From positions 84,312-148,311 of the forward strand of contig JAFKKG010000026.1 of assembly GCA_017305715.1 (NCBI GenBank): a stretch of 64,000 bases of DNA, written 5' to 3'. Source of the stretch: Hyphomicrobiales bacterium (GTDB lineage Bacteria; Pseudomonadota; Alphaproteobacteria; Rhizobiales; Xanthobacteraceae). The translations under genes were made by a program, and so were the position numbers. Below, piece after piece: positions 205 to 51,533 of the stretch (position 1 is its first letter; each line of letters starts with the position of its first letter). The notes beneath the pieces were generated by a model. It made no database searches and was not told the origin of the DNA. It saw only the letters and a program-made list of their open reading frames with translations.

Positions 205-516
205 TTAATGGGAATGGGGCGCCCCCGCGGCTCCAGCCTTCCTCCGGCTGGACGTCCCCGGCTTCATCATCGACATTTTCTTGTCTTGCATCATGGCCAT
301 CATCGTCATCTTGCATCCCTGCGTTCCATCCTTGGCCATCGCAGCATTCACCATCGCCAAATGGCGGTTCATCTCCCACTTCTCGGCACTGTCAGGCATA
401 GCGCTCATCATCGATGTCATTTTCGACATGTCGTCGCACATCTGCATATGTGCCGAAGCGGGGCTCAACGCCAAAACGGCGGCGACGAGACCTATCGGGA
501 ATACGGCGTATTTCAT
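205..516 (-). CDS. Small Met-rich exported protein
   Basis: This encodes 103 residues. The start at 516 is chosen because a good ribosome binding site, AAGGAG, lies 6 nt upstream; an upstream in-frame start at 564 has no such support. Residues 1-22 form a signal peptide ending ALSPASA, so the product is probably periplasmic. The mature part is very rich in Met (runs such as MTMMAMMQDKKMSMM), with few Cys and a His-containing tail, as in proteins that bind soft metals such as copper. Metal binding is an inference from composition; I know no named family that fits. It stands alone, convergent with the partial gene at the left edge. Confidence 0.7.
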   Translation of the reverse strand: MKYAVFPIGLVAAVLALSPASAHMQMCDDMSKMTSMMSAMPDSAEKWEMNRHLAMVNAAMAKDGTQGCKMTMMAMMQDKKMSMMKPGTSSRRKAGAAGAPHSH

Positions 517-707
517 GTTGAACTCCTTGCGGGACGGTCTGGATACCGATGCACCTCGAAGCATAGCTCTTGATGGCCCTCGCCTGGCTTGATCTGGCGC
601 AACACGATGGTGCCCCTCAGCGGCAAGAGGGTTCCTTAACCATCGCCCGCTATGTTCGGCTCAATCGTGGATCGCCGATAAGGCTCCGCGAGAAGTAATG
701 CGTAGGG

Positions 708-737
708 AAACCCACCGCCTCAACCCGGTGGGTTTTT
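708..737. terminator. Bidirectional intrinsic terminator
   Basis: A 9-bp stem, AAACCCACC (708-716) pairing with GGTGGGTTT (727-735), is followed by more T residues. It lies between the Met-rich gene and the small gene at 760. The A-rich left arm and T-rich right arm would allow it to work on both strands. Confidence 0.6.
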
Positions 738-759
738 CCGTGGGAGGGGTTGTGTCACC

Positions 760-918
760 ATGTCACTGTCATCAGCCAAGAACTATGCGCTGCGCGCCGA
801 ACGCTGCCAGGACGCCAAGGAAGCCGCCGACCTCCTGGCAAAAGCGATCCTCGAATTGGCGGCGGCGATCGAGGCTACCGACGCAAAAGTGAAGAAGATC
901 AACAAGTCAGCCGGATGA
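760..918 (+). CDS. Small hypothetical protein (52 aa)
   Basis: ATG at 760 with a purine-rich GGGAGGGG about 10 nt upstream; TGA at 916-918. The 52-residue product (MSLSSAKNYALRAE...) is Ala/Lys/Glu-rich and should be largely helical, with no signal or membrane segment. Small proteins like this are common in Bradyrhizobium; no function can be assigned. It follows a terminator directly and so has its own promoter or a read-through message. Confidence 0.6.
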   Translation: MSLSSAKNYALRAERCQDAKEAADLLAKAILELAAAIEATDAKVKKINKSAG

Positions 919-1079
919 TCGGTTCTTGTGCCGATCGGCACGGGATCCCGGCAAACCGCCGATCCGAACGGCGTTCGGAGGTCACATGCGGTTTCGCGAA
1001 GTTTCCCGTTAGCCTTAAGACCACATCATCGACCCCGGCCCGCCGGCCCGATGCTAAGTGACTTCCGCAAGGAAGGACC

Positions 1080-1232
1080 ATGTTCAACGGGCGAAAAAAC
1101 ACCGTCATCGGACTGACCGCGATCTTCACCTTCGTGCTGGTCGAGCTGGCCGCGATCGCCTGCACGGTCGCCCTGGTGCTTCAGTTCGCCTTCGACGTGG
1201 ACATACCGCTTTTGTCGTCCAGCGACGAGTGA
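1080..1232 (+). CDS. Small single-pass membrane protein (50 aa)
   Basis: ATG at 1080 with GGAAGG 3-8 nt upstream; TGA at 1230-1232. The protein starts MFNGRKNTVIG and is then one hydrophobic segment (about residues 9-38, TAIFTFVLVELAAIACTVAL), followed by a short acidic tail. It is probably an inner-membrane peptide with its N-terminus inside. Function unknown. Confidence 0.6.
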   Translation: MFNGRKNTVIGLTAIFTFVLVELAAIACTVALVLQFAFDVDIPLLSSSDE

Positions 1233-1515
1233 GCCCATGCCGATCGCCACCCGTTCATGCCCCCTGATTGCTGCCCAGCCCCCGCAGGGATGACACGGCT
1301 TTCGACACGCACGGCCGGGTCCAGACCTTGCCGCTGAACCGTGCTATTCGCCGGCATCGCACGGTGATGATCCAAGCTACGTGGAATGTCAGGCTTCCCG
1401 TACCGTCCTGCGATCCGGTCAGTACCTGATCGTGATGCCTCGAAAGAATCTGCGACGTGCGGGCATTCGTGATGAGATGCGATAAAATCACGTGGTGGCA
1501 TGACCACAGGGGCCG

Positions 1516-2421
1516 ATGATGGAATTGCGTCGCTTGAAATATATGTCCGTCCTGGCGGAAGAACTGCACTTCGGAAGGGCCGCCGAGCGGCTCGGTATCG
1601 CCCAGCCCGCACTTACGCAACAGATTCAGGCCCTCGAGCGCGAGCTTGGCGTCGAGCTTTTCCACCGGACGAAAAGGTCGGTCAAACTTACCGTCGCCGG
1701 CCGCGTCACCCTGAACGAGGCGATCAGGACGCTTCTGCAAGCTGAAAAGACCGCGCTGGTGGCACGGCAGGCCGGCCGCGGCGAACTGGGACACATCGAA
1801 ATAGGATACGTGGGCTCGGCGATCTTTACCGGCGTTCTGTCGAAGGCAATTTCCCGATTTCGCGAAGCCAATCCCCTCGTGGAGTTTCGCCTGAGCGAGA
1901 TCGGCATCGTCCAACAATTGGATGACGTCGGCAGTGGGCGGCTGGATCTCGGAATCCTCCGCCTTCCGGTGAAATCGCTGCCGTCCGGCGTCGCGATCGT
2001 ATCGCTGCACCGTGAGCCGATTATTTTGGCGATCCCCCGCGGACACCGGCTCGCGCGGCTGAATACGGTGCCGCTGGAGGCGTTGAAGTCCGAGCCGTTC
2101 GTCGCCGTCCAGATCCAGGAGGGAAGCGGCTTCAACGCGCAGGTCGCCCAAATGTGTGCCGCGGGCCGATTGTCGCCGCAAATTGTGCAACGCGCGGGGC
2201 AATTCACGGCGCTCGCCGGCATGGTCGCCGGCGGCCTCGGCGTGGCATTCGTGCCGGATTCGCTGCGGCACCTGCAGATAGCCGATGTGGTCTATCGACC
2301 ATTGGCAAAGATCAATCAGCAGTCCGACCTGGCGATGGTCTACCGCAAATCGGAGCGGGCGCCGGCCGTCATCGCGTTTGTCGACCAGTTGAAGAGGTCG
2401 GCACGCCCGGCACAGGCGTGA
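1516..2421 (+). CDS. LysR-family transcriptional regulator
   Basis: 301 residues, the usual LysR length. The N-terminal 60 residues are the winged helix-turn-helix (MELRRLKYMSVLAEELHFGRAAERLGIAQPALTQQ in two stretches), followed by the linker helix and the periplasmic-binding-like effector domain. It resembles regulators of aromatic catabolism (BenM/CatM group). It lies 120 bp upstream of, and on the same strand as, the oxygenase genes, which is less common than the divergent arrangement, so it may be co-transcribed with them. The effector is inferred to be the operon's aromatic substrate or product. The start could be either of two adjacent ATGs (1516 or 1519). Confidence 0.9.
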   Translation: MMELRRLKYMSVLAEELHFGRAAERLGIAQPALTQQIQALERELGVELFHRTKRSVKLTVAGRVTLNEAIRTLLQAEKTALVARQAGRGELGHIEIGYVGSAIFTGVLSKAISRFREANPLVEFRLSEIGIVQQLDDVGSGRLDLGILRLPVKSLPSGVAIVSLHREPIILAIPRGHRLARLNTVPLEALKSEPFVAVQIQEGSGFNAQVAQMCAAGRLSPQIVQRAGQFTALAGMVAGGLGVAFVPDSLRHLQIADVVYRPLAKINQQSDLAMVYRKSERAPAVIAFVDQLKRSARPAQA

Positions 2422-2541
2422 ACGGCAGTGATACGATCTACTTATTTATTTAGCCCAAACCATTATTGGCCACGGCCTCGCCCGGCTCGGTAGTCTCTTT
2501 TGAATGCCTCTAAAATCGGCAAGACAAGGGAGAATGACGAG

Positions 2542-3813
2542 ATGCAGGCGACGCCCCACCCGAGCACCCACGCCGCCGGCAAGCCGGCATTGGATTTCAC
2601 GTGGCCCGTTGAAGGCATCGCGCGCGCCCCCTATCGCCTCTTTACCGATCCGGAAATCTACCGGCTGGAGCAAGAGCGGATTTTCAGAGGCCGCTGCTGG
2701 AATTATCTCTGTCTTGACGTCGAAATCCCGAAGGCTGGCGACTATCGCACGACGGTGATCGGCGAGACGCCCGTCATCGTCACCAGGGATCATGACGGCA
2801 AGATCCACGCGATGGTCAACCGCTGCGCCCACAAGGGCGCGCTGGTATGCCTCAAGAAGCAGGACAATGTCGCGAGCCTTACCTGCGTCTATCATGCCTG
2901 GAATTACGAACTGGACGGAAAACTGAAGGGCGTCGCATTTCGCAACGGGGTTCGCGGGCAAGGCGGGATGCCGAGCGATTTTGACGTCGCCAAGCATCGT
3001 CTTCAGCCGATCCGCATCGAAAACTTCTGCGGAATCATATTCGGGACATTCTCGGAGGAGGTCGAGGGCGTCGAAAGCTATCTCGGCCCCGACATGGCGC
3101 AGTTCATCAAGAGAAACCTTGACCGTCCGCTTCGCGTCCTCGGCACGCACAGCCAGACGATTCACAATAACTGGAAGCTCTACGCCGAAAATCTGCGGGA
3201 TTCCTACCACGCGACCCTGTTGCATACGTTCTACACGACCTTCAAAGTGAACCGCCTGGACATGGATGGAGGCATCATCCTGTCCGACGAGAAGTGGCAT
3301 CATCTGAGCTTCGCGCGCCGTGCCAAAATGGAGGAAGCCGCCGAATATTCCGAAGCCAAGGTCCATTCGGCCAGCTACGACTCCGCCCTCGAGGGGCCCG
3401 GGCTGCTGGAGGCGTGGGAGGAATTCGACGACGGCATCACGCACAGCATCCAGACTGTCTTCCCCAACATGTGCATTCAGTTCACGCTGAATTCGCTCGC
3501 CATCCGCTTCTTTGCGCCGAAGGGGGTCGACAAGACCGAACTGTTCTGGATTTACCTCGGCTACGACCGCGATACCGAGCAGCAATCGCAGATGCGCATC
3601 ATGCAGAGCAATCTGACAGGCGCGGCAGGTCTGGTCTCGCTCGAGGACGGCTGTATCAACGAATTCGTCCAGCGCGGCACCCGCAACGATCCGCAATGCT
3701 CATCTTTCATGGAAATGGGGGGGCGGGTCGCCGAATCCGAGAAGAACTCCCGCGCGACAGAAGCCGCCGTTCGCGGTTTCTGGCAGGGTTATCGCGGCAT
3801 CATGGGATTCTGA
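2542..3813 (+). CDS. Rieske ring-hydroxylating oxygenase, alpha subunit
   Basis: 423 residues from ATG 2542, preceded by AGGGAG. It is the catalytic subunit of a non-haem-iron aromatic dioxygenase. The Rieske [2Fe-2S] ligands are Cys95, His97, Cys115 and His118 (C-x-H-x17-C-x2-H). The mononuclear iron site is NLRDSYHATLLH, with His223 and His228, and probably Asp369 in SLEDG; Asp220 would carry electrons between the two centres. The sequence, including NYLCLDVEIPKAGDYRTT and the end RGFWQGYRGIMGF, is closest in my memory to terephthalate dioxygenase TphA2 and anthranilate dioxygenase AntA. Substrate remains open. The beta subunit follows 10 bp later; no reductase is in the window. Confidence 0.93.
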   Translation: MQATPHPSTHAAGKPALDFTWPVEGIARAPYRLFTDPEIYRLEQERIFRGRCWNYLCLDVEIPKAGDYRTTVIGETPVIVTRDHDGKIHAMVNRCAHKGALVCLKKQDNVASLTCVYHAWNYELDGKLKGVAFRNGVRGQGGMPSDFDVAKHRLQPIRIENFCGIIFGTFSEEVEGVESYLGPDMAQFIKRNLDRPLRVLGTHSQTIHNNWKLYAENLRDSYHATLLHTFYTTFKVNRLDMDGGIILSDEKWHHLSFARRAKMEEAAEYSEAKVHSASYDSALEGPGLLEAWEEFDDGITHSIQTVFPNMCIQFTLNSLAIRFFAPKGVDKTELFWIYLGYDRDTEQQSQMRIMQSNLTGAAGLVSLEDGCINEFVQRGTRNDPQCSSFMEMGGRVAESEKNSRATEAAVRGFWQGYRGIMGF

Positions 3814-3823
3814 GGAGCAAGCC

Positions 3824-4330
3824 ATGCCCAGCGTCATCGAAAAGCCGGCCGCGCAATCCAGCGGCGACCCATGCCGCGAAGCTGCGGAACTGATCGCATC
3901 ATACGGCCACGCCATGGACGATGGCGAGATCGATCTTTGGCCGCAGTTCTTCACGTCGAACGGCATCTACCACATCACGACCAGGGAAAATCACGAGGCT
4001 GGCCTGCCGATCGGAATCATGCGTTGTGTCGGCCGCGGAATGATGATCGATCGGGTCAAGGCGTTCCATACCGCCAATATCTTCGAACCGCATACGTACA
4101 ACCACATCGTCGGCTATCCGACCATGTCATACGACAAGGCGAGCGGTTGCGTGACGGCGCGTTCGAACTTCCAGGTCGTTCGCATCATGGAGACCGGCCG
4201 GATGGAGCTGTATGCAACCGGAAAATATCTCGATGTGATTCAGCAAGAAGGCGGTTCGCTCAAGTTCAGGGAACGTGTCGTCGTGATGGATTCGCGAAAT
4301 GTCGATATCCTGCTCGTTGTCCCGCTCTAG
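3824..4330 (+). CDS. Ring-hydroxylating oxygenase, beta subunit
   Basis: 168 residues, starting 10 bp after the alpha subunit with GAGGAG 6-11 nt before the ATG. It has the cystatin-like SnoaL/NTF2 fold pattern of small dioxygenase subunits (DLWPQFFTSNGIYHITTREN, then LYATGKYLDVI, then KFRERVVVMDSRNVD). Small subunits shape the hexamer and carry no metal ligands. Together with the preceding gene it would form the terminal oxygenase (alpha3 or alpha3beta3). It is slightly longer than TphA3 as I remember it (about 150 residues). Confidence 0.9.
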   Translation: MPSVIEKPAAQSSGDPCREAAELIASYGHAMDDGEIDLWPQFFTSNGIYHITTRENHEAGLPIGIMRCVGRGMMIDRVKAFHTANIFEPHTYNHIVGYPTMSYDKASGCVTARSNFQVVRIMETGRMELYATGKYLDVIQQEGGSLKFRERVVVMDSRNVDILLVVPL

Positions 4331-4430
4331 GCAGTGCTGTCGTGGCGATGCTCCGGGGAAATAAAGCGCGTTTCCGGAATGAGCGGGCGCGCCCAACTCT
4401 CGAATCAGATCGAGTTGGTAAACGGGAGAA

Positions 4431-5408
4431 ATGTTCGTGAGAAAATTAGTTCTGGGTTTGCTTGCCGTCGCACCGGTGTTTCTGGTGGGCGTCGCCCGGG
4501 CCGAGACTTTCCCCACGCGGAGCGTTCGATTCATTGTCCCGAATCCTGCGGGCGGTTCAAACGACGCGGCCGCACGCATCCTGGCACAGGCGCTCGGTGA
4601 GATATGGCAACAACCCGTCGTCATCGAGAACAAGCCTGGCGGGGGCGGAAATATCGGAACCCAGGCGGCAGCCACCGCACCGGCCGATGGGTACACCTAT
4701 CTGGTCAGTTCACCCGGTCCAATCACCATCAATCCATCGCTCTACAGGAAGTTGCCGTTTGACCCGGCCAAGGATTTCGTCCCGGTGGCGCTGCTGGCGA
4801 CCGTCCCGATCGTTTTGATCGTCAATCCGAAAGTCCCGGCTTCAACCCTCCGGGAGCTGTTGGAGCTGACGAAAAACACAGCGGAAGAGCCCAATTACGC
4901 TTCCTCCGGAATCGGATCGACGCATCATCTGTCGGCCGAACTATTCAAGAAAATGACCGGCGCCCGCCTGAGACATGTGCCCTATCGCGGCGCCGCGCCG
5001 GCAATGAATGATCTGATCGCAGGCCACGTCCCTGTTCTCTTCGATAATTTGCCGACCGTGATCCCCCAGGTTCAGGCCGGTACCGTGCGTGCTTTGGCCG
5101 TTGCGAGCCCCAAGCGGTTAAGCTCACTCCCCGATGTGCCGACATTTGACGAGGCGGGATTGCCGGGCTTCGAGGCATCTTCCTGGTTCGGGGTGCTGGC
5201 GCCGGCGAATACGCCAGCCGATATCGTCACCAAAATGACCGCGGACATTGAGCGGGTCATGTCGAACCCGGGCTTCCGAAAGAGCTTCGAAGCGACGGGC
5301 GCGGAAGTAGGTACGCTTTTTGGTCCGGATTTCGGACAATTCATGAAACGAGAAAATGAAAAATGGGGAGACGTTATCAAGAGCTCCGGCGCCCCCATCA
5401 TCGAATAG
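4431..5408 (+). CDS. Bug-family tripartite tricarboxylate receptor
   Basis: 325 residues with a signal peptide (MFVRKLVLGLLAVAPVFLVGVARA). The mature protein has Bug/TctC signatures: PTRSVRFIVPNPAGGSNDAAARI near the start, VIENKPGGGGNIGT, and later LRHVPYRGAAPA and VLFDNLP. Bug receptors bind carboxylated compounds in the periplasm. GGGAG is close to the ATG (3 nt). Its place behind the oxygenase recalls tph operons, where TphC binds terephthalate, so an aromatic carboxylate ligand is a reasonable inference. No TctA/TctB membrane subunits are nearby. Confidence 0.9.
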   Translation: MFVRKLVLGLLAVAPVFLVGVARAETFPTRSVRFIVPNPAGGSNDAAARILAQALGEIWQQPVVIENKPGGGGNIGTQAAATAPADGYTYLVSSPGPITINPSLYRKLPFDPAKDFVPVALLATVPIVLIVNPKVPASTLRELLELTKNTAEEPNYASSGIGSTHHLSAELFKKMTGARLRHVPYRGAAPAMNDLIAGHVPVLFDNLPTVIPQVQAGTVRALAVASPKRLSSLPDVPTFDEAGLPGFEASSWFGVLAPANTPADIVTKMTADIERVMSNPGFRKSFEATGAEVGTLFGPDFGQFMKRENEKWGDVIKSSGAPIIE

Positions 5409-5585
5409 GCCGCCGGCGCCCGGCGAAGGACGGCTGGATGGACCGCGGGCGGTGCATAGCGGAAGCGGGCGCGCGGGTGGCGGCGTCCACAGCGCCCCGA
5501 TCAGGGCGTCGTCATTCCCGGCGGCAAGGCGCCGCGTTTTCGTCAACAGACGAGCGGGAATGTTTAAGTAAAGCAGAGGGATAAA
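5409..5585. other. Intergenic, chromosome side of left junction
   Basis: 177 bp between the Bug receptor and the left attachment repeat. I see no gene or clear hairpin terminator. Confidence 0.5.
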
Positions 5586-5631
5586 ATGGTCGGAGCGAGA
5601 GGATTTGAACCTCCGACCCCTAGTCTCCCAG
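5586..5631. other. Left attachment site (46-bp direct repeat)
   Basis: Identical over 46 bp to 51455-51500, starting one base outside the CCA end of the tRNA and ending inside the anticodon arm. After base 5631 the two copies diverge at once (TGATG here, ACTAG in the tRNA). This is the displaced 3' tRNA fragment left by integration. Confidence 0.93.
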
Positions 5632-5729: not shown

Positions 5730-7055
5730 GTGTCTCGGCGCGTATCCTCCGTTCCTATGCGAAAGTTTCCCAGAGTTTCCCAGAGGGTCGCTTTGACCGA
5801 CCGCTTCTTGCGGGCGCTTAAGGCCTCAAATGGCCGGATCGAGGTGGGCGACGCTGTCTGTCGGGGCCTCTCGATCCGATGCACCCCCGCCGGCGTGAAG
5901 ACTTGGACGTTCGCGTACAAGCTTAACGGTCGCATGCGCCGGATAACCCTTGGCGAATATGGCGAGCACCCTGCCCTGGGCCTCAGCGAAGCCCGTACGC
6001 AGGCGGACGCGCGGCGCGCGCAACGGCGCAACGGGGACGATCCTCGCGCTCTTCAGGATGCCGAACGAGCCACAAAGGCGCAAACAACGCTCACCTTCGC
6101 CGAATTGTGCGAGCTCTACATTGAGCACGTCAAAGCCAGCGGGAAGCTTAGTTGGAAGACTGACGAGGGCTATCTAAAGCGGCCCAAAGCCAAATTCGGC
6201 TCCAAGCCAGCCGCGTCGTTAACGAAGCGGGAGCTGCTCGACTTCCTCAAAGGGATAGCCCGAAAATCAAAGTCCAGCGCCAATCGAACGCAGTCGACGG
6301 TCAGAACAATGTGGGGCTGGGCCGTTGAAGGCGACCATGTCCCGGTCAACTTCCTCGCCGGGCTCAAAAAGGTTGGTGGCAAAGAAAGGGAGAAGGACCG
6401 GGTTCTCACGACCGACGAGATCCAGGAATTCCTAACGACACTGGTAGCCTCTGACTTCGAGATCACAGAGACGGTTGGGCTGGCACTGAAAGGCATCCTA
6501 TTAACCGCACAGCGCCCTGGCGAGGTGGCGGGCATGATGCTGTCCGAACTGCACGATCTGGACGGCGCCCTACCCCACTGGATCATCCCGCGAATTCGGA
6601 CGAAGAATAAAAAGACGGAGCACACGGTGCCCCTGTCGCCCGCGGCGGTGCGTCTCATCCGTGAAGCTCTCGAGGCCAGTAAAGATTATGCAAAAGGCAA
6701 GAACGACCGGCCGGTGTTCGCTAGCCGCTTCGAGGATATCACCAGCCTTGCCCGGCATTCCCTAAGTCAGGCGGTGCGGCGCCTGGTCAAAGACCAGAGA
6801 TTTGCCGGGAAGTTTACCAAGTTCACTCCACATGATCTCCGACGTACGGCTGCCACCCTGGCGCAATCGATGCGCGTTCCGAAAGATCACGTGAAGGCAC
6901 TCCTGAACCACAACGACGGGGACGTTACTTCGATTTATGCGCGGTGGCACATGTTCGATGAGAAGCGCGAGGCTTCGCTCGCGATCGAGGCCGCGGTATT
7001 GCCGTTGATGCCGGCGCCGGCGGCGCACGCTGCTTTAGGCCTGCAATTTGCCTGA
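5730..7055 (+). CDS. Tyrosine integrase (site-specific recombinase)
   Basis: 441 residues from GTG 5730; an ATG at 5757 is an alternative start. The N-terminal part is the arm-site binding DUF4102-type domain of tRNA-targeting integrases (LTDRFLRALK...WTFAYKLNGRMRRITLG), followed by a core-binding SAM-like domain (about 120-220) and the catalytic domain. Catalytic residues visible are Arg262 (TAQRPGEV), a Lys near 292, His368 and Arg371 (HDLRRT), His394 (LLNHN) and nucleophile Tyr403 (SIYARW). All are present, so the enzyme looks active. It is next to attL and points into the island, which it should insert and excise at tRNA-Pro. Confidence 0.96.
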   Translation: MSRRVSSVPMRKFPRVSQRVALTDRFLRALKASNGRIEVGDAVCRGLSIRCTPAGVKTWTFAYKLNGRMRRITLGEYGEHPALGLSEARTQADARRAQRRNGDDPRALQDAERATKAQTTLTFAELCELYIEHVKASGKLSWKTDEGYLKRPKAKFGSKPAASLTKRELLDFLKGIARKSKSSANRTQSTVRTMWGWAVEGDHVPVNFLAGLKKVGGKEREKDRVLTTDEIQEFLTTLVASDFEITETVGLALKGILLTAQRPGEVAGMMLSELHDLDGALPHWIIPRIRTKNKKTEHTVPLSPAAVRLIREALEASKDYAKGKNDRPVFASRFEDITSLARHSLSQAVRRLVKDQRFAGKFTKFTPHDLRRTAATLAQSMRVPKDHVKALLNHNDGDVTSIYARWHMFDEKREASLAIEAAVLPLMPAPAAHAALGLQFA

Positions 7056-8439: not shown

Positions 8440-11214
8440 ATGACTGCGCCCCTCCCCGCTACGGATACTTCCATCTCCAAACTGGATTACGCGCTAGACG
8501 CGCGGCGCCGCGGCATGCGCATCTTTCCCATGTTGCCGGACAGTTCTGTCACAGCCTCGGCAGAAGCATACTGCAATCCAACCGACGATGAAGCCAAAAT
8601 ACGCGAATGGTGGGCGGCCGATCCGACTCACAACATTGGCATCGCAACGGTGGAGCTTCTAGTCCTGCGCACCAGCACGGCGAAGGCGTCCGCGGAGCTG
8701 GGCCAATTGATTTCTGTCATGCTAGGCGACACACCGAAAACTACGCGGATTATTCATTTTGTCGGCCGCAAGTCCCCCGGGTTTTTGATCTTCTCATTGC
8801 CGTCGGGCGCCCGCGTAGCTGAACGTGAAATCCTCCCTGGCGTTCGCGTGCTCTCAGATGATGACGCGATCCTTGGGCCCGGCTCGGAGATCAACGAGCT
8901 GGAATCCATCTTCGCCAACGAGCGCTCCGTTGCACCCGCCCCGTCCTGGCTGATCGAAATGTGCGGCGTGACGCTGCCGGAAAGCAATCTAATGAACACT
9001 AATGTCGTCTCGATGCCGCGGCAGACCGCGGCCGAAATCGCCTCAAAAACGCAAGTCGAACGGGCTAAAGATGCAGCTGCACGACTGCACATGAGCGTTT
9101 TTCCCGTGCACGCTTATGAAGACCCCGGCCCTGACGCCACGCCTGAACAGCGCCTTGTGGCTGCCAAGAAGGCAAAAACACCGCTCATCAAAGACTGGCA
9201 AAACCAAGCATCGCAAGACCCTGCTAAAATTGAAGAGATGTGGCGGCAATATCCGAACGCCAATATTGGCGGCGTGACGCGGGACCACATCGTCGTTGAT
9301 CTCGACCCACGCAATGGCGGCGAAGAAACGATGGCAGCCCTCCTAGCCGTCGAACACTTCCCCGACACCGCGGCAACCCGCACACAGAGCGGCGGCCGAC
9401 ATTTGATTTACGTGGCACCGAATGGTCCCGTAAAGGGCGGAACAGGCAAGCTCGGCCCCGGCGTCGATATCAAGGCGCGCGGCGGTTATGTCCTGTTACC
9501 AGGATCGACGATCGAGGGTCGACCGTACGAATTCGAGATCTCGCGACCGCCGGCGTTCGCGCCACAATGGATCGTCGACCGGTGCGCTGCCGCCAAAGAT
9601 AGGACCGATACGGCTGGAAAGCGCGTCGTAGAGGAAGACGATACCGCGCGCGAGATGTTTGTGGCTTGGATCCGCGAGCATGCCCCGTGCGCCGAACTTG
9701 GCGAAATCGACGACCGGACATTCCTAGTTTCCGCAAGGGGGTACGACTTTGGGTGTTCAGAATCCACGGTGCTTGAGCTCGTGCACGAATGGAACGACAC
9801 CCACTGCAACGGACTCGGCGATTTGGAACGCCTGCCCGTGGTAGTCGAATCTGCGGGCCGGAACCGGGACAAGGCAATCGGATCTAGCCATCCTCTCGCG
9901 CCAGGGTTCGAGGCAGTAGAGATCGACCAAACGATGCGGCCGGGCCCTGTCGCGCGCAACGCCGCTCCGGCGCCGCCGGCGACGGGGCTCGCCACACCGC
10001 TGCTGCAATTCGATCCCGTCGGACTTGAGCTCCGCCCTTGGGTCATTCCTGGTTTTGCTTGTCGAGGGCGTGTCACGCTCCTCGCCGGACCCGGCGGTGT
10101 GGCCAAGTCGACCTATTATCTCATGGTGGCCGTCGCGACCGTCTCCGGCCGCAGTGACATCTGCGGCTTTCCAATCTTGAAGCGCGAACGCGTGTGGGTC
10201 TGGAATCAAGAAGATGACATTGCGGAGATGCAACGCCGCGTCGCCGCGATAATGAAAGAGTTCAATGTCTCCTGGGACGACCTCAAGGACGAGGACGGCT
10301 CGCCCATGTTGTATCTCGACTCCGGCGTCGACAAACCGTTAATGCTGGCCAATCGTTCCGCCGAGCATTCAATTGTCCCAGGCAAGCAGGTAGCCGACGT
10401 CATCGCCACCGCAAAGGCGAACCGGATCGCGGTGCTGATCCTGGACCCGTTGGTAGAATTCCACGAGGCTTCGGAGAACGATAACGTCCAGATGAGGGCT
10501 GTAGTTGGCCAGGTGCGTCGGATAGCGGTGGAGGCGGACTGCGCCACGATGCTCTCGACCCACACCCGGAAGCCACCGGTTGCCTCCTCAGACGGCTTTG
10601 CGGGCGAGATGGACGCCGCCCGCGGCGCCAGCGCTCAGCTTGGCGTCGTCCGGATCGGGGCGACCATCTTCAGCATGTCTCCGAAGCAAGCCAAGGACCA
10701 TCGGCTTGCCGAGGGGACGACGCATCTCGATTACGTCCGGATCGATATCGCCAAGAATAACCTGGCACCGGTGTTACCGGATCCGATCTGGTTCAGGCGT
10801 GTGGGTGTGCGCGTGGGCGGCGGGTTTGAGCAGAACGGCGAAAGTGTGGGGGTGCTCCGGCCGGTGACCCTCGATAAGAAGGTAGCCACGTCTTCATCGA
10901 TGCACCTTCCCAGCCTGCTGGCAGAAATCATCGCCACCAAGTTGAGCTGGGAGAAACATTTCAAGGTGTCCGAGGTGCTGGCGTGCGCGACGCCGGCGCA
11001 GCAGGCCTTGTTTGGGGACAAGAAGAACCGCGCCAGATGCATCGCGGACGCGTTTGACGGCGCCGACGCGTGCCCGACGGAGGCTGGAATTCTCACGAAG
11101 ACATCAGCCCGGGGCAAGGAAATGACCCTGCATCTACGGCGGACTTCCTCACTTCCTCAGCCGCCGAAAAAGGGAGGAAGAGGTTCTGAAAATGACGACG
11201 ACACAGAGACTTAA
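8440..11214 (+). CDS. Primase-polymerase/AAA ATPase with two Prim-Pol domains
   Basis: 924 residues (ATG 8440; TTG 8434 also possible). Residues about 10-180 are a Prim-Pol-like domain whose metal and nucleotide motifs are gone: after NIGIAT the usual D-x-D reads LRT, and the S-G-G-x-H motif is absent. Residues about 210-390 are a second, intact Prim-Pol domain with DLD near 286-288 and SGGRH near 316-320. A RecA/RepA-like ATPase follows, with Walker A GPGGVAKST near 549 and Walker B VLILDP near 666, then a histidine motif (STHTRK). Such primase-helicases start replication of plasmids and phage satellites. The C-terminal tail is charged, and its codons contain the first iterons of the downstream array. 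Confidence 0.9.
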   Translation: MTAPLPATDTSISKLDYALDARRRGMRIFPMLPDSSVTASAEAYCNPTDDEAKIREWWAADPTHNIGIATVELLVLRTSTAKASAELGQLISVMLGDTPKTTRIIHFVGRKSPGFLIFSLPSGARVAEREILPGVRVLSDDDAILGPGSEINELESIFANERSVAPAPSWLIEMCGVTLPESNLMNTNVVSMPRQTAAEIASKTQVERAKDAAARLHMSVFPVHAYEDPGPDATPEQRLVAAKKAKTPLIKDWQNQASQDPAKIEEMWRQYPNANIGGVTRDHIVVDLDPRNGGEETMAALLAVEHFPDTAATRTQSGGRHLIYVAPNGPVKGGTGKLGPGVDIKARGGYVLLPGSTIEGRPYEFEISRPPAFAPQWIVDRCAAAKDRTDTAGKRVVEEDDTAREMFVAWIREHAPCAELGEIDDRTFLVSARGYDFGCSESTVLELVHEWNDTHCNGLGDLERLPVVVESAGRNRDKAIGSSHPLAPGFEAVEIDQTMRPGPVARNAAPAPPATGLATPLLQFDPVGLELRPWVIPGFACRGRVTLLAGPGGVAKSTYYLMVAVATVSGRSDICGFPILKRERVWVWNQEDDIAEMQRRVAAIMKEFNVSWDDLKDEDGSPMLYLDSGVDKPLMLANRSAEHSIVPGKQVADVIATAKANRIAVLILDPLVEFHEASENDNVQMRAVVGQVRRIAVEADCATMLSTHTRKPPVASSDGFAGEMDAARGASAQLGVVRIGATIFSMSPKQAKDHRLAEGTTHLDYVRIDIAKNNLAPVLPDPIWFRRVGVRVGGGFEQNGESVGVLRPVTLDKKVATSSSMHLPSLLAEIIATKLSWEKHFKVSEVLACATPAQQALFGDKKNRARCIADAFDGADACPTEAGILTKTSARGKEMTLHLRRTSSLPQPPKKGGRGSENDDDTET

Positions 11215-11306
11215 CCCTCGACTTCCTCACGTGAGGAAGTTGGGTTGAGGAAGTCGGGGTCCAACTAGCTGAAAACAAAGGATTTCCCAACTTCCTCACT
11301 TCCTCT
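11143..11306. repeat. Iteron-like array, candidate replication origin
   Basis: Seven copies of the 9-mer ACTTCCTCA or its complement lie in 164 bp: direct at 11143, 11151, 11221 and 11290, at 11298 with one final mismatch, and inverted at 11232 and 11246. The pairs at 11143/11151 and 11290/11298 repeat every 8 bp, sharing one base. The 11221/11232 pair makes a perfect 20-bp palindrome centred on CACGTG. The array begins inside the last codons of the primase gene and runs into the following gap. Iterons beside a Rep/primase gene are the usual layout of replication origins in plasmids and satellites. Function is inferred. Confidence 0.65.
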
Positions 11307-11434
11307 CCCTACGGGAGTTCGTCTCTGATGAAGACGAGAACAAACACCACGCAGGACACTGGCCGATTCCAGAAAAGGAAAGCCGCTTCGCCGCCGGCGC
11401 CCACCAGACCGATCCACCATTGAGTTTCTCAAAC

Positions 11435-11938
11435 ATGCGACGACCAAACCCCTCGCCCACTGGCAGCAGATTCAAAGTCCGCGGCCAGATCTACATTCAG
11501 ACCGGCGCCTTCTTCCACCCCATGAGTAATGACCGCGAGGTTCGCGTCCTCGAGCTCGCCACGACCTGCGCGGATTGCGAACAGCCTTTCTAGGCCACCG
11601 CCTCGATGCGCCAGATCAAAACCCGGCAGTTGGTCAGGCGCTGCCCCGAGTGCCGGAAGGTGAATACCGGACCCGTGCCGATCGTTGAGCCGGCGAAGCG
11701 CAAGCCGGTCAAAAAGAGGCCCGCTGGCCGCAAAGCTGTAGGGGTGCTGCGGGCGCCCACCGGGGCGCGCGCGAGGCCACCAGAGCGAGTCACTTTGTTG
11801 GAAGTCCGGGCTGTCGACCTGCAACCGGGTGAAGCGCCAGCGACTGCGCTGCACCGGGTGTCGTCGGTGCCGAACGAGCCGGCCGGACCACCCCAGCCAA
11901 CAGCCGGCTACCGCAACATGTTGGCCATGCTGGATTGA
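11435..11938 (+). pseudogene. Zinc-ribbon protein gene with in-frame amber codon
   Basis: One frame runs from ATG 11435 to TGA 11936-11938 (168 codons) with a single TAG at 11591-11593. The part before it ends LELATTCADCEQPF and the part after reads RQIKTRQLVRRCPECRK, so the two C-x2-C halves of one zinc ribbon lie on either side of the stop. Frame, composition and the Cys pairs all continue across the TAG, so this is a nonsense mutation (or read-through) in one gene. An ATG at 11606 would give only the 110-residue C-terminal piece with half a zinc site. The C-terminal region is basic and Pro/Arg-rich, as in nucleic-acid binding proteins. Confidence 0.75.
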
Positions 11939-13542: not shown

Positions 13543-14028
13543 ATTTTACACCTATCTCCGCCTTGAGAGCGGATTGCGTCCCGGTGCTCAAAGACCGGTG
13601 TAGCTGGTCTACGGGCGTCTTTGGGCTTTCACCTTGGACATGCACGCGCGTCACCGGGACACTGATTTGAGGAACTACACGACAGGGCTTGAGACCCATG
13701 CTCGCCAGTAACTCGTACTTTTCTATTCGTCAACTAAGCCATTGATTTAAAATGACTTTTTCTCTCAGTTCTCTACAAAATTTGCGAGCCAGATCGACCA
13801 CAAGTGATTGAATCGAAACCGAGAAAGCAACGCGAAAATTTATTTCCGCAATCTCAACAAACTCGACATCGCGCGTTCGTAAGCCATACGGAAAACCCCG
13901 GTGCACGTCGGATGAGTGCGCCGTTGTAAACGCTCACTTTCTTCGTGGCCGAATTGGTATCCGTAAATCAGTTGTTTTCCGTATAAGGCGGACGTATGAA
14001 TGGGGAGAGGCTTATTTGGAGCACGGGC
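13543..14028. other. AT-richer non-coding stretch upstream of serine recombinase
   Basis: 486 bp with no gene I can support. Bases about 13720-13880 are visibly AT-richer than the surroundings. Such a stretch before a resolvase gene would be a natural place for its promoter and res-type sites, but I could not define paired sites by eye. Confidence 0.4.
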
Positions 14029-14616
14029 ATGAAGCGAGTAGCGCTGTATTTGCGGGTCAGCACCGATAGTCAGACAACTGAAAACCAGCGGCGCGAGCTA
14101 CGGGCGGTTGCGAAACGCTCCGATTGGCAAATCGTCAAGGTCTATGAGGATGCCGGTATCAGCGGTGCCAAGGGACGCGATAGGCGCCCCGGCCTGGATG
14201 CGATGATGAAGGCGGTCAACGCGAAAGAATTTGACATGGTCGCGGCGTGGTCAGTCGACCGACTTGGCCGTTCGCTCACGGATCTGCTGGCAATTTTACA
14301 GGCGCTCCGCGACAAAGGCGTCGACCTCTTCCTGCATCAGCAGGGTTTGGACACCTCCACCTCCGCCGGCCGTGCCATGTTCCAGATGCTCGGCGTGTTC
14401 GCCGAATTCGAACGGGGCATCATTCGAGAGCGCGTCAACGCTGGCCTGGCGCGAGCTCGAGACAGAGGCACGAAGTTGGGTCGCCCGCGTACCACGCCGG
14501 CAGTTGAGAAGAAAATTCAACGACTGCGCGACAAGGACATGGGTATCCTGAAAATCGCACGCACTCTTGGCATCGGGACGAGCGTAGTGCAGCGCGTTGT
14601 CGACGGCCTAAGCTAA
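14029..14616 (+). CDS. Serine recombinase (resolvase/invertase type)
   Basis: 195 residues from ATG 14029 (an ATG at 13996 would add 11). The catalytic Ser11 is in MKRVALYLRVSTDSQ, followed by the conserved SVDRLGRSLTDLL and FAEFERGIIRERV motifs of the resolvase domain, then a short C-terminal helix-turn-helix (MGILKIARTLGIGTSVVQRV). The size and domain order match Tn3-type resolvases and DNA invertases (Hin/Pin). It may resolve dimers or belong to a lost transposon; no Tn3 transposase is present. Confidence 0.93.
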   Translation: MKRVALYLRVSTDSQTTENQRRELRAVAKRSDWQIVKVYEDAGISGAKGRDRRPGLDAMMKAVNAKEFDMVAAWSVDRLGRSLTDLLAILQALRDKGVDLFLHQQGLDTSTSAGRAMFQMLGVFAEFERGIIRERVNAGLARARDRGTKLGRPRTTPAVEKKIQRLRDKDMGILKIARTLGIGTSVVQRVVDGLS

Positions 14617-16727: not shown

Positions 16728-17727
16728 CCGCCGACGGTGATCCAGAACGGGCACAAGTACATCAGCCTGACGGGGGCTACCAGTGAGGCTTACCGATCTG
16801 ACGTGAGACGATCATACGTGCGGCGGCTAACCTCGGCATCTTGCGTGGGGTCTTCAAGAGAAGCGCGATTTCCCTGCCAATACGAGTGCACTTCAATCAC
16901 AAAATCCGAAGGACCGGCCGCGCAGGCCGGCGTTGCCGCCGCTCATGAAAACCTGCGGCAAGAGCCGAAATGCCTTTCCAAACGGGTGACGCTAGGCGAG
17001 AGCGACCGAACCGGGAGCATTATGGTGAAACAACTTCTAGCTGGCGCCCTGCTCTGCGCGGCATCTAATTCGCCGACGGCGCAAACGAACGCCGCTAGAC
17101 AATTGCTCAAATCCCGCGTCGGGGTGACTTTGAAAGTGGTTGTGCAGGACATCGTTAGCACGATAATGCAGTTGAGCCGGTCTCCACTCGTTCGGCCCAC
17201 ATCGTTTCGGGCGCAGCAATCACCAAGCCGCTTTTTTTTGTCGCCAAACATCCGTCGGCCCCCCATGGCGCGCCGTTGTCTTTGCCGATCGCATGGGCGC
17301 GACGGCCTTCGTTGAATTGAATGTCGACGCCCCTCCCCCCATCGGCCTGCTTAGGGTTCAGAAGGATATGCGCGTGATCAGATCAACGCACTCGATAAAT
17401 CCCCTGGGCAGGTTCTGGCGGCATCCCCGAGTGCAGTTGTGTGCACTAGGACGCGCTGAGATAAAACGCCACACTCAACAACCCCGCCCGCTGCCGGGGA
17501 GATGTACCACTTGGTCGCATCAACGCGATGTTACGAATCGCCACGGGTCGAACCGGTTGCCACCCCGAATATTGGTAAATCCGAATTGTTTCGGCGTTGC
17601 CGTCTTGAAACCTGCTTGCGCCGCGCGCCCGGTTGTTCCAAACAGGTTAGGCAACCATTCGACTCACAACGTGTCCCACGCCACGCCGGCAAGAGATCGG
17701 CGACGTGGGAGCCTTCGGAGAAGCTCA
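16728..17727. other. Non-coding or decayed 1-kb stretch
   Basis: 1,000 bp with no intact gene. A frame from ATG 17022 begins like a signal peptide (MVKQLLAGALLCAASNSPTAQ), then becomes a basic sequence of no sensible character, so it could be the start of a decayed secreted-protein gene. A CCGGCC/GGCCGG hairpin lies near 16914-16930. Its right end holds the ribosome binding site of the HipA-like gene. Confidence 0.4.
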
Positions 17728-18519
17728 TTGCTTTCGTTGGTCTCACCGGTCTCGTATCTCAAACCAACAACCAGGGGAAAAACCGAACCGTTGATGGTGC
17801 TGTGCGAGCGGCAAGACGGCTCAGAAGTCGAACTCGTCGCCAAATTCTCCGGCGCGTGCGAGGAGAAAGAAGTCAACTTGGCACGCGAAGTGATCGCGGC
17901 TTGCCTTGCCGGCGACCTGGGGCTGCCGGTCGCCGAGCCAATGATTGTGGCCTCGTCGCCGCAATGGATCAGCAGCATTCCCGACCCGGCGGTGCGTGCC
18001 AAGGTCGCCGCCAGTTGCCCGGTAGCTTTCGGGTCAAAGCTTTGGACTGGGCAGTTTTCTGTCTGGAACTCCGGCACCCAGATAACCGAATCGATGCTCC
18101 AGACAGCAGCCGCCATCTTCACTTTTGATGCCATCATCCAGAATTTCGATCGCCGGGACGAAAACCCAAACTGCTTAATTAATGGCGAAAGAATGCTGAT
18201 ATTCGACCACGAACAGGCCTTCATGCACGGGCTCGTGCTGTTCTGGACGCCACCTTGGACGCTGGGCGGACTACAAAATTTTGAAGTACCGGCGCGGCAC
18301 ATTTTCCGCCCAAACCTGTTCGGCCGTGCTATCGATTTTCCGAGCATTAAGACTTCCTGGACCAATATCTCGGACCAACGGGTGACAGAGTACCTGGCGG
18401 CCGTCCCGCCGGAGTGGCGCGGCAACCAGGGTCCGCTCGATGCCGCACTCGCCCTGATCAGGGATGCCAGGGACAATATCGACGGCTGCTTACAAGAGAT
18501 ATCGCGGGTGCTGACATGA
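17728..18519 (+). CDS. HipA-like kinase (HipA_2 type)
   Basis: 263 residues from a TTG at 17728, chosen because GGAG lies 7 nt upstream and because homology to HipA-like proteins (VSPVSYLKPTTRGKTEPLMV) begins here, before the first ATG. Kinase features: Lys39 in VAKF as the probable ATP lysine; NFDRRDENPN (139-148) as the catalytic loop with Asp141; Asp160 in LIFDHEQAF as the metal ligand. It lacks the N-terminal subdomain of classical HipA and there is no hipB-like gene beside it. The stop overlaps the start of the DUF3037 gene (ATGA), so they are translated together. A role as a toxin or phage-response kinase is inferred. Confidence 0.75.
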   Translation: MLSLVSPVSYLKPTTRGKTEPLMVLCERQDGSEVELVAKFSGACEEKEVNLAREVIAACLAGDLGLPVAEPMIVASSPQWISSIPDPAVRAKVAASCPVAFGSKLWTGQFSVWNSGTQITESMLQTAAAIFTFDAIIQNFDRRDENPNCLINGERMLIFDHEQAFMHGLVLFWTPPWTLGGLQNFEVPARHIFRPNLFGRAIDFPSIKTSWTNISDQRVTEYLAAVPPEWRGNQGPLDAALALIRDARDNIDGCLQEISRVLT

Positions 18520-19379
18520 AAAAAACGACTTACGGCTACGTCGTTCTTCGGTACGTGCACGATGTCATCACGGGTGAATTCGTGAACGTCGGGCTGGTCA
18601 TGCATGCGCCTGAAACCGACCAGGTGAAAAGCAAAACTCGTACCTCGATGGGCAGGCTGAAGGCGACGTTCCCCGATCTGGATCGAGCGGCGTTCGTGGC
18701 TGCGATGAAGTCGGTGACCAGTGCGCTCCATAGGGTCGAGAAGCAATTCCGCTCTGACGGCATGATCAAGCAGTTTTCCGACGCGAAGTCGTTCGCTCAT
18801 CTCGCGGTGCCGATCGACGACAGTTCGCTGCAATGGTCGCCGGTATCGACCGGCTTGACCGACGATTTCGATAGAACGTTCGATCGTGTGTACCAGCGAA
18901 TGGTGACCCGCTACGACCACCCATCGTTGGTTCGTCGCTCCGATGAAGATGTCTGGCGGCCGATCCGTGAGAAGATCGCCGAGCGCAGGATCACAGTGCG
19001 GTTCGAGGAAAAGACGATCGTCGGCGCGACCGATCAGATCGAGTTCAAGCACACCTGGAAGAATGGTGCTTGGCACGCTTATGAAGCGCTGTCGCTCGAT
19101 CTGGCCGATGCCGACGGGATCAAGGACAAGGCCCGCCGCTGGCGTGGGCATCTCGACGCGGTATTCGAGGGCAAGAGCGATCCCAATCTGAAACTGAATT
19201 TCATCTTGGGTGCGCCAACCGATCCGAAGCTGCTGCCGGCCTATGAGAACGCGGTCAAGATACTTGGCCACTCGCCGTCGCAGCCGAAAATATATCGGGA
19301 AGGCCAGATCGACGACCTTGTTTCCGAGATCGAGGATGAGGTGCGGGCGCACGCTGCCGAGCACAGGCGGCTGTTCTAA
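18516..19379 (+). CDS. DUF3037 protein, partner of HipA-like kinase
   Basis: 287 residues; the start overlaps the kinase stop by 4 bp. The N-terminus (YGYVVLRYVHDVITGEFVNVGLVMHAP) is the hallmark of DUF3037, followed by helices and a C-terminal half of mixed strands (AERRITVRFEEKTIVGATDQIEF) that may be a second domain. No catalytic motif is evident. To my knowledge DUF3037 genes often sit beside HipA-like kinase genes, which implies a shared function, perhaps as inhibitor, antitoxin or substrate. The biochemical role is unknown. Confidence 0.8.
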   Translation: MKKTTYGYVVLRYVHDVITGEFVNVGLVMHAPETDQVKSKTRTSMGRLKATFPDLDRAAFVAAMKSVTSALHRVEKQFRSDGMIKQFSDAKSFAHLAVPIDDSSLQWSPVSTGLTDDFDRTFDRVYQRMVTRYDHPSLVRRSDEDVWRPIREKIAERRITVRFEEKTIVGATDQIEFKHTWKNGAWHAYEALSLDLADADGIKDKARRWRGHLDAVFEGKSDPNLKLNFILGAPTDPKLLPAYENAVKILGHSPSQPKIYREGQIDDLVSEIEDEVRAHAAEHRRLF

Positions 19380-30972: not shown

Positions 30973-31398
30973 ATGAGGGTGATGGGCACCAAATCGCGAG
31001 AGACCATCTATGGCGCGTCAGTCCGGGCGGCGGCGGAGGAAGCCGTCCGCGTGCGGAAGGTTGCGGATGAGACCTCCTGCCAAGCCTGGAACAAGCGCAT
31101 GCTGGCCTTTCAGGGCCCCGCGCAGCCATCCCCAGCGCTGGGTGACGCCCTTAACGCCGGCTACCTCTACCTCGAAGTCAAATGCCTTGGCTGCAACACG
31201 CATCAGACGGTCGCGCTGAACGTCGTGCGACGACCGAAATGGACGCCGGTCCATGAACTCGAGCGGTACATGCGCTGCCGGGATTGCTCCGAAGTCCGCC
31301 GCTATCCGTACAAGCGCAGCCATCTGGTCGCGCTGCGACGCAACAAGATTTCCGCCAGCGATCCGCCGTCGGCGTGGTGGCCAGGCGAACGGGATTAG
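30973..31398 (+). CDS. Hypothetical zinc-ribbon-like protein
   Basis: 141 residues from ATG 30973 (ATG 30982 is an alternative). Two C-x2-C pairs, [11 protein letters not shown] and [11 protein letters not shown], about 30 residues apart form a probable zinc ribbon. It has conserved-looking flanks ([14 protein letters not shown]..., [17 protein letters not shown]) that I associate with Bradyrhizobium accessory proteins. It lies 5 bp upstream of the SRAP gene, so the two may share a message and a DNA-related role. Confidence 0.7.
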
Positions 31399-31403
31399 GA
31401 ACG

Positions 31404-32069
31404 ATGTGCAACCTCTATTCGATTACGACCAACCAGGAAGCGATCATCAGACTCTTCCGCGTCATCAACCGTTATGTGGGCAATCTACCGCCGATGCCTG
31501 GCGTGTTTCCCGACTATCCTGCGCCCGTCGTGCGCAATACCGGTCCCGATCGCGAAATGGTCATGATGCGCTGGGGCATGCCGCCGCCGCCGCGCACCGG
31601 CGGACCGCCGGTCACGAACATCCGGAACACGTCGTCACCGCACTGGCGCGGCTGGCTGAAGCCCGAGAACCGCTGTCTCATCCCGTTCAATAGTTTCGCT
31701 GAATATGCGCCGGAACCGAACCCCGAGACCAAGAAAAAAGACGTCGTCTGGTTCGCTTTGCACGATGATCGACCGCTGACGGCTTTCGCCGCGATCTGGA
31801 CTGAGTTCACGGGCGACCGCGGCACCAAGTCCAAGCCGGTCCCCGGCCCTCACCCCGTGTATGGTCTCCTGACGACGGCGCCGAACGCGGTCGTCGAGCC
31901 CATCCACCCGAAAGCGATGCCTGTGATCCTGACGACTGAGGAGGAACGCGACGTCTGGATGCGCGCGCCATGGGATCAGGCAAAGGCGCTACAACGACCA
32001 TTAGCCGACACTGCGCTAAAAATAGTCGCGCGAGGGGCCGATAAGGAAGACAAGCCCTCAGCCGCTTAA
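31404..32069 (+). CDS. SRAP protein (YedK/HMCES-type abasic-site protein)
   Basis: 221 residues from ATG 31404. The second residue is Cys ([11 protein letters not shown]), which after Met removal forms the thiazolidine link to abasic sites in single-stranded DNA. Further family residues: Asn in VTNIRNTSS, the [12 protein letters not shown] segment with active Glu, FAAIWTEF, and the terminal histidine motif [11 protein letters not shown]. These proteins shield abasic lesions at replication forks. As with many bacterial copies it sits in an accessory region, here possibly with its zinc-ribbon neighbour. Confidence 0.93.
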
Positions 32070-32650: not shown

Positions 32651-32851
32651 ATGTCTGATCAATCCGAATTGGGTATCGTGCTCGCCAATGCCCCGCGACT
32701 GGAGCGCGCATTTGGTCGCAAACTGGCGGCGGTCATCACTTTGATCAGTCTGTATTTCGCGAGGCGCCCGTCTGGCATCGCCGGCTTGATTACGTCGCTA
32801 CTTTTCATTGTGGCCCTGGCCGTCCAGGCTTGGCTAAAGCTTCGTGTCTAA
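32651..32851 (+). CDS. Small membrane protein (66 aa)
   Basis: 66 residues; GGAGGAGAAGCC precedes the ATG. One C-terminal hydrophobic helix (SGIAGLITSLLFIVALAVQAWL) and a possible amphipathic first half. Function unknown. It ends just before, or overlapping, the large recombinase reading frame. Confidence 0.6.
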   Translation: MSDQSELGIVLANAPRLERAFGRKLAAVITLISLYFARRPSGIAGLITSLLFIVALAVQAWLKLRV

Positions 32852-32909
32852 AACGTTGTTCTCGCGTCGGCACTTTGGTAAAACATCCTTGCCAACTGGA
32901 CGTCGGCCC

Positions 32910-46262: not shown

Positions 46263-46367
46263 GCTGCCGTTCCTTTCTATTACCTGCTCATTTAAGAACG
46301 TTCGGCACACATCGTTCCGAAGAAGCATGCTGTGAATAGCGAGCCAATCTCGGGGACAGCGACTTCG

Positions 46368-48893: not shown

Positions 48894-49014
48894 CTCTTCC
48901 CTTACCTGCAAGCAGCATGCGCCTACGCCTGGAATAGAACCTCGCCGGCCGGGGGCGGTTCCGATGGCATCTATCCCACCTTGCCTTTTCGGTCTTCGCC
49001 CTTACATCGATGCA

Positions 49015-51454: not shown

Positions 51455-51500
51455 ATGGTCGGAGCGAGAGGATTTGAACCTCCGACCCCTAGTCTCCCAG
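51455..51500. other. Right attachment site inside the intact tRNA-Pro gene
   Basis: 46 bp identical to 5586-5631; it is the 3' part of the tRNA gene read on the minus strand, through the T arm to the anticodon loop. Confidence 0.93.
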
Positions 51501-51533
51501 ACTAGTGCGCTAACCGGGCTGCGCCACGCTCCG
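51456..51533 (-). tRNA. tRNA-Pro (anticodon GGG)
   Basis: 78 nt including an encoded CCA. The acceptor stem CGGAGCG/CGCTCCG, D stem GCGC/GCGC, anticodon stem CTAGT/ACTAG with loop CTGGGAG, and T arm GGAGG-TTCAAAT-CCTCT all pair. Loop positions 34-36 are GGG, reading proline CCC/CCU. The gene is intact because the island's right repeat replaces the lost 3' part. Confidence 0.97.

Follow-up and report, generated by a model that had tools for sequence, protein, structure and literature searches.

The closest described counterparts of the system reported here are the Rep-ori modules of Staphylococcus aureus pathogenicity islands (SaPIs) and phage-inducible chromosomal islands (PICIs). In the accounts cited, a self-loading initiator helicase is encoded with or beside a primase, and a short-iteron origin lying directly 3' of the helicase gene is recognised by the C-terminal domain of the helicase (PMC7581432, PMC6092414). 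We found a comparable arrangement in a 64,000-nucleotide stretch of Hyphomicrobiales bacterium DNA (assembly GCA_017305715.1, contig JAFKKG010000026.1, positions 84,312 to 148,311), hereafter called the window. An island of ~46 kb, integrated at tRNA-Pro, encodes a primase-helicase, and an array of short repeats (iterons) begins inside the end of its gene and continues beyond it. Judging from the sequence, this array is quite likely the replication origin of the integrated element, and it is best read as a SaPI-like origin that directly follows the gene of a helicase acting as self-loading initiator, here one of the RSF1010 RepA class. Recognition of the origin by the C-terminal domain, as described for the SaPIs, is predicted here from covariation in relatives. 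In contrast, the named SaPI Rep helicases are described as related to the DUF927 and Primase_Cterm families, and PICI origins as two iteron sets around an AT-rich region, whereas no AT-rich stretch at a fixed place was found here.

RSF1010 itself shares with this locus a RepA-class helicase, iterons and short hairpins, which in RSF1010 are used by a primase, but its functions are divided among three separate proteins, RepA, RepB' and RepC, of which RepC binds the iterons (PMC4234260). Here, the helicase and the proposed iteron reader form one chain, to which a Prim-Pol domain is fused in the window and in some relatives. The pRN1 protein ORF904 likewise unites primase, helicase and a C-terminal winged helix and has a putative origin immediately downstream; however, its helicase belongs to superfamily 3, and its origin is described as a stem-loop of ~100 nt without iterons (PMC4234260). 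In staphylococcal cassette chromosome mec (SCCmec) elements, the C-terminal domain of Cch2 binds direct repeats that lie shortly 3' of the helicase operon, but the helicase is of the Primase_Cterm/D5 type, and the region with the three 5-nt iterons is described as very similar from one element to the next (PMC7581432). Geminivirus iterons vary between close relatives and interact with the cognate Rep (PMC12548392), although this is a rolling-circle viral Rep and no relation is claimed. The differences from the known systems lie in the helicase class and in the octamer, which is not constant between elements and follows a few residues. Fusions of primases to RepA-type helicases are mentioned in PMC5862659, in the main text of which the word "iteron" is absent. 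Neither this origin family nor the residue-to-base code proposed below is described in the titles or abstract openings of the openly licensed papers searched.

The repeat unit in the window is the 8-mer ACTTCCTC, which is present in seven copies within 163 bp (11143-11305), five on the plus strand and two on the minus strand (Table 1). The initial annotation had counted seven copies of a 9-mer. The array exists, but the exact 9-mer ACTTCCTCA accounts for six of the copies, and the copy at 11298-11305 has T at base 9. The remainder of that description is borne out by the coordinates: the two direct pairs, 11143/11151 and 11290/11298, are spaced with a period of 8 bp, the 20 bp at 11221-11240 form a perfect palindrome, and, as the primase-helicase gene stops at 11214, the pair 11143/11151 lies within its last 24 codons. 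No other 8-mer repeat in the 64 kb is as dense, the array having seven copies per 300 bp as against four in the runner-up stretches (300-bp intervals, 25-bp steps). The exact 9-mer occurs seven times in the window, six of them in the array, where 0.29 occurrences are expected, and this count was reached in none of 100 dinucleotide shuffles. In the genome-wide count proposed as a check, ACTTCCTCA occurs 73 times in 7.45 Mb, 67 of them outside the array (reversed-reading pattern, 45 times), yet its tandem 16-mer form, with one mismatch allowed, occurs twice, both times in the array.

The helicase is assigned to the RSF1010 RepA class on sequence and on modelled fold. With a profile of 12 sequences, including that of the window, RSF1010 RepA (1g8y, E 7.1e-26) was the only sequence in the PDB matched at E<=0.01, and a fold search with the model of a relative, L106, returned RSF1010 RepA (1nlf) as the top match. 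The L106 model has a mean predicted local distance difference test score (pLDDT) of 90.7, and its C-terminal winged helix is predicted with high confidence. The window protein shows a second Prim-Pol match near its N-terminus (window 8491-8949, residues 20-172, E 1.3e-13). The primase part is variable: among seven full-length relatives scanned, Prim-Pol was detected in three, RepB_primase below its curated cut-off in one, and no primase family in three. A separate Toprim gene precedes the helicase in two plasmids.

Relatives were drawn from family genomes, plasmid and phage records, and viral contigs (at most 80 loci per scan of the contigs). The protein was matched at E<=1e-20 in 32 of 296 family genomes, own genome included, and close relatives in GTDB contigs amounted to a single match. 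Nine of the 29 family loci (L005-L033) were removed by hand before clustering, namely L011, L012, L018, L020, L026, L028, L030, L032 and L033, because the ATPase was a different one, the copy was broken or an open-frame scan gave no usable helicase end. The same-genus helicase match L033/L299 (G220) is broken by three stop codons. The sample of 271 loci yielded 118 clusters at 85% identity, 115 of which have enough sequence 3' of the stop codon.

For each cluster, the 8-mer with the most copies within 300 bp 3' of the stop codon was tested against 200 dinucleotide shuffles. The array was significant in 65 of the 115 clusters at p<=0.005 and in 82 at p<=0.05. The corresponding controls gave 2/104 before the open reading frame (ORF), 1/111 at 700-1000 bp after the stop and 0/118 inside the ORF at the stricter threshold, and seven, five and three at the looser one. 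The SaPI/PICI-type layout, with the array directly 3' of the initiator helicase gene, is seen in those 65 clusters and in the window, where it starts inside the gene end. Same-strand spacings of up to 14 bp are mostly 8-11 bp (86 of 116, in 46 array clusters).

An octamer of approximately the form GTG-NN-G(C/A)A was found in 80 of the 118 clusters, the choice depending on a template score in which G at base 1 is preferred to C; many of the template-free top 8-mers have the same form. These 80 clusters contain 42 distinct octamers, some common to up to seven clusters. The expected conservation of the 9-mer next to homologous primases is not borne out: 3 of 296 family genomes, own genome included, have the tandem 16-mer, and the homologues bear other octamers. 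Conservation of the 9-mer itself was rejected, since the repeat unit varies between elements. As far as can be read from these sequences, it is the layout and the octamer template that are conserved. The ten clusters of the window's own subfamily have another form, with units such as ACTTCCTC, TTCCGCAA, GCGGAACC and AACTCCGC. Six of them reach p<=0.005, while L007 and L124 have p values of 0.065 and 0.085; the best interval of L124 extends back into the gene end, as in the window. The unit of L138 occurs nine times, at least ~260 bp 3' of the stop, and L125 is without one.

In some clusters that at first seemed to lack an array, it is displaced. Counted in a 300-bp interval from the given distance, there are 10 copies at +468 in L212, 6 at +384 in L166, 8 at +1005 in L262 and 12 at +1510 in L284; off the template, CGGAACGC occurs eight times at +3365 in L041 and ACCGTGCA six times at +1413 in L074. 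In other clusters, such as those of L070 (12 loci) and L073 (17 loci), the available DNA showed no strong array, and none follows the helicase match in Rhizobium phage RHph_X2_26, an Azospirillum plasmid or the Manatee Spring phage. In the last record (L042), ATCTGTCC is present 16 times in a 300-bp interval starting 3075 bp before the helicase stop. The array is found 3' of the helicase in two records of circular plasmids that also have phage genes: Rhodoplanes serenus (53.8 kb) and Methylobacterium indicum (31.5 kb), the phage genes of the latter being a tail tape-measure gene and an integrase. No plasmid replication gene other than the helicase is annotated in the whole of either record, in which many genes are hypothetical.

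The variation of the octamer made it possible to compare it with the variation of the protein. The covariation set comprised 63 of the 80 octamer clusters (base 7 C or A) and included the window, which is poorly aligned. Similarity of the iteron followed that of the helicase C-terminus when the helicase domain was controlled for (partial Mantel 0.259, 0/2000 permutations), and the reverse gave -0.065. The highest mutual information (MI) z scores were 19.9 for residue 376 and base 7, 16.4 for residue 327 and base 1, and 10.1 for residue 377 and base 5 (L106 numbering), as against 6.6 for the best helicase-domain column. At residue 327, glutamine goes with G at base 1 in 40 of 41 clusters and arginine with C in 15 of 16. 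At residue 376, arginine goes with C at base 7 in 54/54 and any other residue with A in 9/9, the single threonine being that of the window's own protein. Where residue 377 is asparagine, methionine or glutamate, base 5 is G (18/18). The possibility that the covariation is an artefact of iterons lying in coding DNA was rejected: 316 of 327 iteron copies start after the stop codon, and in none of the 63 clusters do they overlap codons 327 or 375-377.

These rules were also used for prediction. In leave-one-out tests, base 1 was correct in 58/63 clusters (commonest-base baseline 44), base 7 in 61 (54), base 5 in 46 (26) and base 4 in 44 (37), with bases 4 and 5 jointly correct in 32. A held-out set of 72 loci was made up of 17 new ones and of the 55 clusters not among the 63; a unique iteron was available in 17 of them and none in 55. 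Base 1 was predicted correctly in 12 of 13 cases (C, 6/6; G, 6/7), with one wrong and four without prediction, and base 7 in 14 of 15, with one wrong and two without prediction. The 17 new loci alone gave 7/7 and 9/9, respectively. The displaced arrays (0.4-1.5 kb) of L166, L212, L262 and L284 obey the same code; these are marine-type contigs related by sequence similarity and, unlike the 17 new loci, were inspected before the test.

The tree indicates that the changes are repeated and coupled. For this purpose, 13 of the 17 held-out loci with an iteron were added by hand to the 63 clusters, giving 76; L047, L071, L139 and L300 were omitted, and both wrong held-out predictions (L071, L139) fall among these four. 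The inferred changes number 21 each for base 1 and residue 327, and six each for base 7 and residue 376. Among close disjoint pairs (tree distance <1.2), residue 327 differs in 18 of the 19 pairs that differ at base 1, for example L156 with octamer CTGGAGCA and L058 with GTGGAGCA, and residue 376 differs in all seven that differ at base 7. Pairs with the same base keep the same residue in 29/31 (base 1, residue 327) and 30/31 (base 7, residue 376) cases. That the repeats change in step with a few residues of the helicase tail suggests that the tail reads them. From these comparisons it is evenly poised whether RepA-class initiator helicases carry a residue-to-base code in which winged-helix residues 327 and 375-377 (L106 numbering) set the origin octamer, with a specificity that switches repeatedly (the 21 base-1 changes) and lets co-resident elements keep separate origins.

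The origin assignment made in the initial annotation is thus upheld in part: arrays are far commoner after homologous helicase genes than in controls, and the octamer covaries with a predicted C-terminal DNA-binding domain, and it is on these grounds strongly supported, but the 9-mer on which it was built is not conserved. Under this reading, several copies of the primase-helicase would bind the octamers through their C-terminal winged helices, and the subunits, once bound, would come together at the origin as a hexameric helicase of the RepA type and open the DNA with no loader from the host. Primers would come from the primase domain, or from the separate Toprim primase in some relatives, perhaps at the nearby GC hairpin, which by analogy with the ssi hairpins used by RepB' of RSF1010 we would guess to be a primase site. 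The excised circle would then be copied by host polymerase. As the octamer varies between elements, each helicase should fire its own origin and the few others with the same octamer.

Several observations weigh against this reading or narrow it. No array follows the stop directly in 33 of 115 clusters, even at p<=0.05. An AT-rich melting region at a fixed position was not found, mean AT content being 0.37-0.43 over 0-300 bp in 61 loci, although averaging may mask variable positions; in the window, it is 0.51 in the 100-bp intervals from 11201 and 11251 as against 0.34-0.48 in the rest of 10801-11750, and among the iterons of the Rhodoplanes record there is an AT-rich stretch. The Microvirga lotononidis record with the helicase also has repB and repC. 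For base 5, covariation shows no enrichment across the whole C-terminal domain (Mann-Whitney p 0.74), the signal being in single columns, and all 15 held-out base-7 predictions were the commoner base C, so that this test covered the C half of the rule. The code is read from the relatives and is only putative for the window, as the C-terminus of the window protein is poorly aligned and weakly modelled (own model, mean pLDDT 47-62 per ten residues). Finally, its Walker A motif (window 10087-10110) reads GPGGVAKS, whereas glycine precedes the lysine in the other 11 of 12 aligned sequences, which makes the activity of the window protein uncertain.

This glycine-to-alanine change also favours the view that the array is a former origin of a decayed island that has lost replication, as does the lack of any phage structural or conjugation family in a Pfam scan of 20 selected island ORFs. 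We consider such decay unlikely, though it deserves some weight, as the 926-residue frame is open with both principal domains detected, the seven repeats are intact at the 8-mer core, and the att pair is intact. That the repeats are chance or low-complexity sequence has next to no probability: the 9-mer does occur 67 times elsewhere in the genome, but the shuffles, the positional enrichment and the protein covariation in relatives contradict it.

Two other explanations assign the region a role in gene expression. The GC hairpin could be an intrinsic terminator that the array merely surrounds, and CCC-armed hairpins are indeed concentrated in the 300 bp after the stop (76/115 clusters, as against 9/104, 17/111 and 10/118 in the three controls). 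However, TTTT follows within 8 nt in none of the 63 hairpins found in the 80 array clusters, so these are not ordinary intrinsic terminators, and some of the arms overlap iterons; a terminator is accordingly improbable. Alternatively, the octamers could be operators, bound by the helicase or by a regulator to control the following genes or the helicase gene itself. In favour of this, the array overlaps the end of the gene and is followed by further ORFs, and in some relatives it is found 0.4-1.5 kb downstream. It is, however, 3' of a replication gene and not at a promoter, the octamer follows the C-terminal residues of the helicase itself, and in SaPIs and SCCmec the same layout is described as an origin, or a putative one, to which the C-terminus of the helicase binds (PMC7581432). 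An operator function in place of an origin is therefore very improbable, whereas a double role as operator and origin is possible.

The preferred reading, a replication origin, is placed in a mobile context by the boundaries of the island. The island has an integrase adjoining the attachment (att) site and a direct repeat of 45-46 bp derived from the tRNA 3' end, and it is absent from a relative, G684, which has the tRNA and the right flank (89% identity). There, the sequence homologous to window 618-1233 stops 168 bp from the att sequence, and nothing matches window 1234-5575, a further difference of 4.3 kb, so that G684 is not a clean empty site. No left flank beside the tRNA, i.e. no clean empty site, was present among the matches listed for 60 same-genus genomes.

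Table 1. Features of the window and of the modelled relative L106 (window positions unless stated otherwise)
Feature	Position	Strand	Remarks
attL	5587..5631	-	partial copy of tRNA-Pro(GGG) 3' end, identical to 51456-51500
Tyrosine integrase (Phage_integrase, Arm-DNA-bind_3)	5730..7055	+	PF00589, E 9.9e-19
Primase-helicase, 926 aa	8434..11214	+	Prim-Pol, residues 212-379; AAA_25 RepA-type helicase, residues 530-714
C-terminal region, proposed iteron reader	10906..11136	+	by homology to winged helix of relatives
Iteron 1	11143..11150	+	inside end of primase-helicase gene
Iteron 2	11151..11158	+	inside end of primase-helicase gene
Iteron 3	11221..11228	+	left half of 20-bp palindrome 11221-11240
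Iteron 4	11233..11240	-	right half of 20-bp palindrome 11221-11240
Iteron 5	11247..11254	-	
Iteron 6	11290..11297	+	
Iteron 7	11298..11305	+	matches 8 of 9 bases of ACTTCCTCA
GC hairpin CTCCC-TAC-GGGAG	11305..11317	.	no T-run after; absent from the initial annotation
Intact tRNA-Pro(GGG)	51456..51533	-	51456-51500 = attR
L106 winged helix (model)	L106 residues: helices 307-318, 332-339, 347-362; strands 366-372, 378-384		

The tRNA-Pro(GGG) gene looks like a recurrent integration site: identical partial copies of 46-48 bp, ~15-57 kb from the full tRNA match, were seen in at least 6 of the 60 same-genus genomes (G683, G678, G707, G690, G024 and G725). Beside the tyrosine integrase, the island has two serine recombinases (13996-14616 and 32844-34508). 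The cargo between the att sites includes SRAP (31284-32069), DJ-1/PfpI (45702-46328) and UvrA-like (46368-48911) genes, and at 17293-19379 an ORF for a HipA_2-like kinase overlaps a DUF3037 ORF.

If the reading is correct, it would locate an origin for a large set of phages and islands, taken here mostly from alphaproteobacterial genomes and viral contigs. It would also supply a series of naturally matched pairs of protein and DNA in which the specificity of an initiator helicase could be read from sequence. Two questions would become testable: by what means a replicative helicase that has no separate initiator finds its origin, and whether co-resident elements avoid firing each other's origins. 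The second may be asked of genome G140, a single example, in which one element (L021) has five copies of GTGCGGCA and another (L320) has three copies of GTGTGGCA.

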